A stretch of DNA of 64,000 bases from Ruminococcus sp. Lineage in GTDB: Bacteria > Bacillota > Clostridia > Oscillospirales > Ruminococcaceae. Shown here one piece after another: positions 63,330 through 64,000 of this stretch (positions are counted from its first letter, which is position 1; every line of letters begins with the position of its first letter). Location of the stretch: the NCBI GenBank assembly GCA_017470905.1, contig JAFUXL010000011.1, positions 62,001 through 126,000 on the forward strand, read 5' to 3'. The translations under genes were made by a program, and so were the position numbers. The notes beneath the pieces were generated by a model. That model did no database searches. It was not told the DNA's origin and was given only the letters and a program-made list of their open reading frames with translations.

Positions 63330-63362
63330 AAGTATCCCCCGTTTTGCAGCGGGGGATTTTTT
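63330..63362. terminator. Bidirectional terminator
   Basis: ATCCCCCG-TTTTGCAG-CGGGGGAT followed by T6, between trpB2 and the convergent XRE gene. Confidence 0.88.
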
Positions 63363-63603
63363 AGTATAATTCCTGTTCAAGATTTCTGAAATTTTCCGTA
63401 TTGAAAAAATCGGTTATTGTTATATTAAGCCCGTCACATAATTTTTTGATTGTCACTATGCCTATATTTTTAACATGATGATTGACAATGCAGTTTACGG
63501 TTGATTGTGTAATGCCTGAAATATTGCAAAGTTTATTGACAGTGATATTGCGTTCATCACAAAGCTCCAGTATACGTTCCGCAACGACTTCTGAAATTCC
63601 CAT
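63361..63603 (-). CDS. XRE-family regulator, divergent from a 25-codon peptide gene
   Basis: 80 residues, single HTH domain: GISEVVAERILELCDERNIT, VNKLCNISGITQSTVNCIVN, then NIGIVTIKKLCDGLNITITD. Little else is present. The intergenic region to its right (63604-63886) holds a GC hairpin (CTCCCCCGCATCGGGCGGGGGAG, about 63639-63661), three related AACGATAAATCGTT-like sites and a strong plus-strand promoter for the peptide gene. Autoregulation and control of the peptide are inferred from this arrangement. Confidence 0.85.
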   Translation of the reverse strand: MGISEVVAERILELCDERNITVNKLCNISGITQSTVNCIVNHHVKNIGIVTIKKLCDGLNITITDFFNTENFRNLEQELY

Positions 63604-63802
63604 AGTATCACACTCCGTTGATTTTATAATGTTTGTATCTCCCCCGCATCGGGCGGGGGAGATACGGCTTTTATGGTTATGATACCATTTTTAAAAGAAA
63701 ATACTTGTTGATAAATCGTTGATTTTCGACAAATTTCGACAAAAAAGTGTCTTATTGTGTATAATGCACAAATCGGACGTTTAAACTTTGTGCATAAAAA
63801 TT

Positions 63803-63816
63803 AACGATAAATCGTT
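63803..63816. promoter_or_regulatory. Operator-like palindrome 1 of the XRE-peptide locus
   Basis: AACGATAAATCGTT, arms AACGAT/ATCGTT, overlapping the first bases of the -35 (63815-63820). A weaker relative, GTTGATAAATCGTT, is at 63707-63720. Confidence 0.7.
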
Positions 63817-63843
63817 GACATTTTAGAAAACTTGTGATATAAT
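63815..63843 (+). promoter_or_regulatory. Sigma-A promoter of the 25-codon peptide gene
   Basis: TTGACA (63815-63820), 17-bp spacer, TATAAT (63838-63843), both consensus. A second possible promoter (TCGACA 63736, 18 bp, TATAAT 63760) lies upstream. Confidence 0.88.
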
Positions 63844-63848
63844 ACATA

Positions 63849-63864
63849 TAACGATAAAACGTTA
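63849..63864. promoter_or_regulatory. Operator-like palindrome 2 of the XRE-peptide locus
   Basis: TAACGATAAAACGTTA at about +1 to +15 of the peptide transcript; with site 1 it brackets the promoter. Confidence 0.65.
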
Positions 63865-63886
63865 ATAAATATACGGAGGTGGAATT

Positions 63887-63964
63887 ATGATATTGGGATG
63901 GATTCTTCCGATAATCTGCACTCCTGTATTGCCTGCTCCTTATTTTTGGAGATGGTTAAGGTAA
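63887..63964 (+). CDS. 25-residue hydrophobic Pro/Trp-rich peptide
   Basis: ATG preceded by a near-perfect GGAGGTGGAATT site. The peptide begins MILGWILPIICTPVLPAPYF and ends W-R-W-L-R before TAA. Fourteen or so hydrophobic residues with four Pro and three Trp, then a basic-aromatic tail: the make-up of membrane-active peptides (type I toxin-like, holin-like or signalling). It has a consensus promoter framed by two operator-like sites and a divergent XRE gene. Too short for ordinary gene finders. The plus strand runs to the window end 36 bp later, so a longer operon cannot be excluded. Confidence 0.65.
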   Translation: MILGWILPIICTPVLPAPYFWRWLR

Positions 63965-64000
63965 TCAGTTTATAGTGTTAATCTGCGGTAATGCAACTGT

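Follow-up and report, generated by a model that had tools for sequence, protein, structure and literature searches.

A putative XRE-controlled membrane-peptide message in Ruminococcus with complementary leader and terminator loops

Introduction

The closest described relatives, in layout, of the locus reported here are bacterial self-toxin genes. In the AapA1/AapA3 and hok systems a short mRNA encodes a tiny membrane peptide and its upstream region pairs with the 3' end (PMC6733600, PMC8167048), and the full-length AapA3 mRNA is described as inert through this 5'-3' interaction until its 3' end is trimmed (PMC6733600). The tisB gene of the tisB/istR1 system is repressed by LexA and its mRNA is controlled by structure (PMC8167048), a pseudoknot near the 5' end activating translation (PMC7708055); such a pseudoknot is also described as needed for translation of timP. 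The Fst/Ldr (par) toxins are tiny peptides that combine a single membrane helix with a charged tail (PMC8167048).

The unit described here, as far as sequence comparison can tell, resembles these genes in layout and appears to match no named system among those compared. It shares with AapA1/AapA3 and hok the short mRNA, the tiny predicted membrane peptide and an upstream region able to pair with the 3' end, but differs in that the predicted contact is between loops and involves the terminator, the Shine-Dalgarno (SD) sequence itself is unpaired, a probable protein repressor is encoded divergently and no convincing antisense RNA was found. The presumptive protein repressor at the promoter of a tiny-membrane-peptide gene, and the higher-order mRNA structure upstream of the ribosome site, recall tisB/istR1, although here the regulator is an XRE protein encoded next door instead of LexA, the partner loop lies in the terminator, and the tisB structure is an activating one. 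The peptides are also Fst-like in size, single predicted helix and charged tail, unlike Fst/Ldr in that they have no Pfam or NCBIfam match and that neither direct repeats nor a bidirectional antisense arrangement is shown here. A literature search found no paper describing this system among the titles and abstract openings listed, and we claim its absence from print no more widely than that; a term search of the text of a review on clostridial type I systems found no occurrence of the words Ruminococcus, Xre, kissing or terminator.

Results and Discussion

Organization of the locus

The window, that is the whole 64,000-nucleotide stretch analysed, comprises positions 62001-126000 of its contig, in a genome of 2.04 Mb (74% complete, 32 contigs). 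The original prediction, made from the letters of the window, had placed near its end a 25-codon ORF with a ribosome site and a consensus promoter of 17-nt spacing, two palindromes, one over the -35 and the other at the transcript start, and an XRE gene divergent from the peptide gene. All of these parts are there (Table 1), the XRE gene as an 80-aa ORF that matches Pfam HTH_26 (E 2.3e-12; 47.4 bits, above the curated cut-off of 22). This picture was incomplete, because the end of the window cuts the operon. Reading on past 64 kb, as had been proposed, revealed a second peptide gene, a hairpin and a terminator across or just beyond position 64000, with peptide 2 beginning 68 bases past the stop of peptide 1 (end at 63964).

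Table 1. Features of the XRE-peptide locus in window coordinates; numbers above 64000 lie beyond the window.
Feature	Position	Strand	Details
XRE (HTH_26) regulator	63361-63603	-	80 aa; ORF and Pfam
Third operator-like site, TTGATAAATCGTT	63707-63720	.	half-matching, XRE side; by eye
Operator palindrome, AACGATAAATCGTT	63803-63816	.	overlaps -35; predicted, read from sequence
Sigma-70 promoter, peptide operon	63815-63843	+	TTGACA-17-TATAAT, TG before -10
Second operator palindrome, TAACGATAAAACGTTA	63849-63864	.	transcript start; predicted, read from sequence
Shine-Dalgarno of peptide 1, GGAGGTGG	63875-63882	+	read from sequence
Peptide 1 ORF, MILGWILPIICTPVLPAPYFWRWLR	63887-63964	+	25 codons; read from sequence
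Hairpin A, loop ACTGTAC	63984-64014	+	5' part (63984-64000) inside window; loop matches terminator loop
Peptide 2 ORF, MGFLIYSGAVGISTAIYSIWVLRHR	64033-64110	+	25 codons, hydrophobic; AGGAGG SD
Terminator, loop GTACAGT	64151-64181	+	read past window end
ABC promoter	64200-64228	+	12/12 promoter match
ABC ATPase gene	from 64335	+	read past window end

The promoter scan gave the peptide operon 12/12 consensus bases together with the 17-nt spacing and TG extension (L003 4815-4843, equivalent to window 63815-63843). A second promoter-like site (63736-63765; 11/12, 18-nt spacer) lies upstream of the operator promoter, and the related locus L004 has a 10/12 site at a similar position. The XRE leader of the window contains a strong GC-rich 15-bp hairpin (63633-63667) that was not seen in L004, a close relative.

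The predicted GRAVY values of the two window peptides are 1.04 and 0.89, and those of the window's peptide 1 together with peptide 2 from the window and loci L004, L005 and L051 span 0.85-1.04; peptide 2 has a charge of +2 in these four loci, for which it was computed with L195 left out. Six peptides and peptide 1 gave no significant match in Pfam (best 0.16, to an unrelated profile) and the two window peptides none in NCBIfam. By this predicted hydrophobicity the locus has the small hydrophobic peptide gene expected of a type I toxin-antitoxin system; we do not class it as one, since both an antitoxin RNA and toxicity would be hypothetical. We considered whether peptide 1 could be a Trp-rich leader of the trpB-like gene nearby and rejected this on orientation, the trpB-like gene lying beyond XRE, upstream, on the + strand.

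The XRE regulator and its operators

The XRE protein matches prophage Lp1 protein 11 (3b7h; E 8.6e-17) and the controller protein C.BclI (2b5a; E 0.0014), HTH proteins that are likewise of about 80 aa; this is a similarity of sequence only, and cargo and operators differ at the XRE locus. Its relatives align in 20 rows with a mean column identity of 86%, and the nearest named loci are in Ruminococcus MAGs from rumen and gut. In the same genus, 53 of 100 genomes have an XRE match at E <= 0.001, 25 of them, own genome included, at >= 68% identity. The upstream regions carry palindromes of the ACGGTAAACCGT type that overlap a TTGAC -35, with a second copy past the -10 in most loci, not all, and it is the recurrence of this XRE/operator/-35/-10 cassette in relatives that makes the locus more than a chance assembly. 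The upstream region of L004 is identical to that of L026. Matches to XRE were also found in viral contigs (8 loci, 51-56% identity) and in a Subdoligranulum plasmid record (66% identity).

Residue 38 of XRE, which from the usual HTH layout we take to lie in the recognition helix, follows the fourth operator base in the loci with a promoter match. With D38, 52 of 56 operator-like matches have G at this base, three A and one T, some of the matches being chance ones, and with C38 (window and L004) the base is A in 4/4; against this stand D38 proteins with ACGA operators at L078 and at one half-site of L011. The G38 protein of L048 goes with ACGT, outside the count as its promoter expression is unmatched, and the Y38 protein of L040 with an operator that by eye is ACGA-like. 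The strict D38-type operator-promoter pattern occurs in 13 of 125 genus genomes, once in each, and the own genome falls outside these 13 because its operator is of the A type. In that genome, 74% complete, there are two exact copies of the operator pattern, both at this locus (63803 and 63849). A wider regulon was considered and rejected, as the own-genome sites with two mismatches (3 forward) are no more than those of the backward control (4 forward, 1 reverse).

That XRE and operator covary, and that exact copies of the operator are confined to this locus, speaks for local control, and XRE is probably a local repressor. The proposal that the adjoining XRE represses the peptide thus gains, as regards its local nature, from the overlap of operator and promoter, from the residue-38 covariation and from operator confinement, while the repression itself is what we infer from these. 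With its variation at residue 38, the cassette also gives a natural series of changes in operator recognition.

Complementary hairpin and terminator loops

We read ten XRE loci whose first cargo is an SD-preceded ORF of <= 35 aa (window, L004, L005, L051, L195, L060, L073, L043, L013 and L201). In the first five, a hairpin before the SD has a 7-nt loop complementary to the 7-nt loop of the terminator; no complementary loop pair was found in the other five. The pairs are ACTGTAC/GTACAGT in the window, L004 and L005, AGGATGC/GCATCCT in L051 and ACCATAC/GTGTGGT, with one G-U, in L195. Among the seven loop base pairs, four have changed on both sides, one on one side and two are invariant. The loop ends 19, 19, 19, 18 and 21 nt before the SD of peptide 2 in the window, L004, L005, L051 and L195, respectively, and 144-181 nt separate hairpin loop and terminator loop. 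In L004, L051 and L195 the hairpin loop starts some 30-41 nt from the predicted 5' end of a message of about 200-230 nt, whereas in the window and L005, where peptide 1 comes first, the message measures about 340 nt.

Peptide 1 had been put at the centre of the unit, a position it does not keep: it is carried by only two of the five loci with the RNA design (window and L005), its two orthologues being divergent (24 and 25 codons), and is absent from L004, L051 and L195. The second peptide, of 20-33 aa across the five loci, is for this reason regarded as the core of the unit.

In order to judge the pairs against chance, it must be considered how they were found. A first scan required 7 T of 12 and returned, among real candidates, only the three GTACAGT loci and missed L051; the pairs of L051 and L195 had initially been spotted by eye, and the criteria were relaxed afterwards so as to take in both, by a weaker T run and by allowing one G-U. 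There are 24 terminators with a seven-nt loop in 65 XRE-type transcripts, and for five of them an upstream hairpin has a complementary loop. Counting the three GTACAGT loci as one gives 3/22, against shuffled means of 0.23 (3/5000 reach 3) and 0.10 (0/5000). Over all loci collected at that stage, 6 of 456 distinct hairpins have such a partner, where shuffling gives a mean of 0.42 (0/2000 shuffles). The shuffles somewhat understate the chance level, since two pairs had been picked out by eye and the rule relaxed afterwards. The widened scan gave seven distinct matches, two of which were judged to be chance (L132, inside ABC coding sequence, and a second one in L195); the counts of the loose weaker-T-run scan include overlapping duplicates, and its control, at 4.45 and 17.2 per round, indicates many chance matches.

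The hairpin/SD pattern, with <= 3 mismatches, occurs in 3 of 125 genus genomes. A covariance model of the upstream hairpin (R1) was tried and set aside: 41 of 396 family genomes matched at E <= 0.01, the own genome at 86 bits and others at <= 28 bits, with exact-type matches only in the three source loci, and the loci viewed looked SD-driven. An order-wide search (6/394 genomes at E <= 1e-36) and a search of the genus of L051 (9/38 at E <= 1e-20) added no kissing pair in the loci that were read. No match at gathering score was found for the five loci in Rfam 15. The kissing design is based on only five loci with three independent loop pairs.

A model for control of the message

In light of these data, the best explanation, in which we have moderate confidence on sequence grounds, is a membrane-peptide message of type-I-toxin-like design that is repressed by XRE and carries its own kissing loop. 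The local XRE repressor would shut the very strong divergent promoter through the operators over the -35 and the transcript start. When repression is lifted, a short mRNA would be made that encodes peptide 2, a putative one-helix membrane peptide of 20-33 aa, rich in small residues and with an aromatic/basic tail, preceded on the mRNA in the window and L005 by another tiny hydrophobic peptide, peptide 1. The hairpin upstream of the peptide-2 ribosome site would kiss the terminator hairpin and close the message on itself, and this closed form may be the off, or delayed-on, state, hindering ribosome entry either up to the point at which the 3' end is altered or during the period after termination. 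We read the closed form as off because it would place a bulky RNA structure beside ribosome entry, as do the 5'-3' interactions of type I toxin messages. Once translated, peptide 2 would insert and act in the membrane; a toxin-like or membrane-active role is plausible, and any toxicity would presumably be directed at the producing cell. If this is true, leader-terminator kissing would be a simple means of making translation of a dangerous peptide depend on whether the message 3' end has been completed or lost, without an antisense RNA, and the loop pairs lend themselves to a clean test by compensatory mutation. We suggest only tentatively, and think it rather unlikely, that the unit is a new class of control element, in which a dedicated XRE is combined with an mRNA locked on itself by 7-nt kissing of its ribosome-entry hairpin and its own terminator, the loops being free to diversify between species and no antisense antitoxin being needed.

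The sign of the interaction may be the opposite. The pseudoknots that activate tisB and timP make a serious rival of the proposal that the kissing complex activates or stabilizes the message, as a standby-like entry site or by 3'-end protection, and that all control is exerted by XRE. Folded on their own, the hairpins of the window, L004 and L005 leave the SD itself unpaired, as this would have it; nothing speaks directly against it, but the placement 18-21 nt before the SD would suit an inhibitor equally well, and we consider it possible, if unlikely. Whole-message minimum-energy folds count against kissing of either sign in that they do not keep the upstream hairpin intact in L004, L005 and L051, the program being unable to model kissing.

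The small hydrophobic peptide and structured mRNA would also fit a type I toxin-antitoxin locus of the classical kind with an antisense RNA that has been missed, for instance a convergent RNA that shares the terminator as in Fst/par. Weak promoter-like sites are present on the opposite strand near the ABC start (10/12 in the window, 9/12 in L004 and 9/12 in L005), and the window terminator scores weakly on that strand as well. These sites, however, share neither hexamers nor position and are no better than expected by chance, the scanned stretches of L051 and L195 have no opposite-strand site past the terminator, and the Rfam result gives no support, which makes a missed antisense RNA improbable.

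The adjacent ABC transporter

The peptides are leaderless, tiny and cationic-hydrophobic, and an ABC gene comes next in the window, L004, L005, L051 and, with a different ABC, L073, as would be expected if a leaderless bacteriocin or secreted signal were exported by the adjacent transporter. The ABC ATPase, however, is shared by 116 of 125 genus genomes, and a separate 12/12 promoter precedes it in the window, L004, L005 and L051; L195 has the kissing design without this gene in the stretch read. The transporter belongs to the core of the genus and is separately promoted, and is probably not a partner. It does not qualify as the dedicated export or immunity gene of a leaderless bacteriocin cluster, the secreted signal put forward in the original prediction draws no support from it, and export of this kind seems most improbable.

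Cargo of the XRE cassette

To describe what the cassette controls, 51 of 92 distinct upstream regions were kept; the 41 dropped were 37 that lack a match to the promoter expression and four that match but whose XRE has < 70% identity to the consensus. An SD-ORF lies within 250 nt of 40 of the 51 promoters, and 30 of these 40 ORFs pass the hydrophobicity threshold. The cargo is varied and mostly membrane or secreted, with secreted proteins, membrane proteins and tiny peptides, and few Pfam matches. The remaining 11 promoters, which have no SD-ORF in that range, and the poor conservation of peptide sequence between loci could indicate that XRE is a promiscuous regulator with incidental tiny ORFs, the transcript acting as RNA or not at all. 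We give this very little credence, since start, stop, strong SD and similar size and hydrophobicity are kept despite the change in sequence, and since, among ORFs of >= 60 aa, 26 of 33 cargo ORFs are hydrophobic versus 21 of 70 control SD-ORFs taken from other parts of these loci (Fisher p 5e-6). The cassette may be a route to unannotated membrane micropeptides in gut Ruminococcus and relatives.

Several other features were seen among the relatives. Five loci (L006, L019, L009, L016 and L057) keep promoter and operators upstream of XRE with no clear SD-ORF; their short transcripts leave a GGGGGG or AAGGAGG stretch free, end in a terminator and are possibly small RNAs. The cargo proteins of L007, L011, L027, L031, L043 and L153 have in common a signal-peptide-like start and a V/IQ-x-I/M-x-A-x-AA region in otherwise different bodies, and one of them has a sub-threshold Peptidase_C39_2 match. 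L060 has, upstream of XRE, two tandem Trp-rich tiny ORFs of 19 and 22 aa and no 7-nt kissing pair. Finally, XRE paralogues with 45-58% identity to the consensus XRE (L198, L200, L202-L204, L206-L211 and L213) have as divergent neighbour another gene, about 126-131 aa long (MTCTIISTGEEL...) and presumably SLOG-like by its appearance, and have other palindromes, for example of the TATATCG and TAGTCTATATATAGACTA types.
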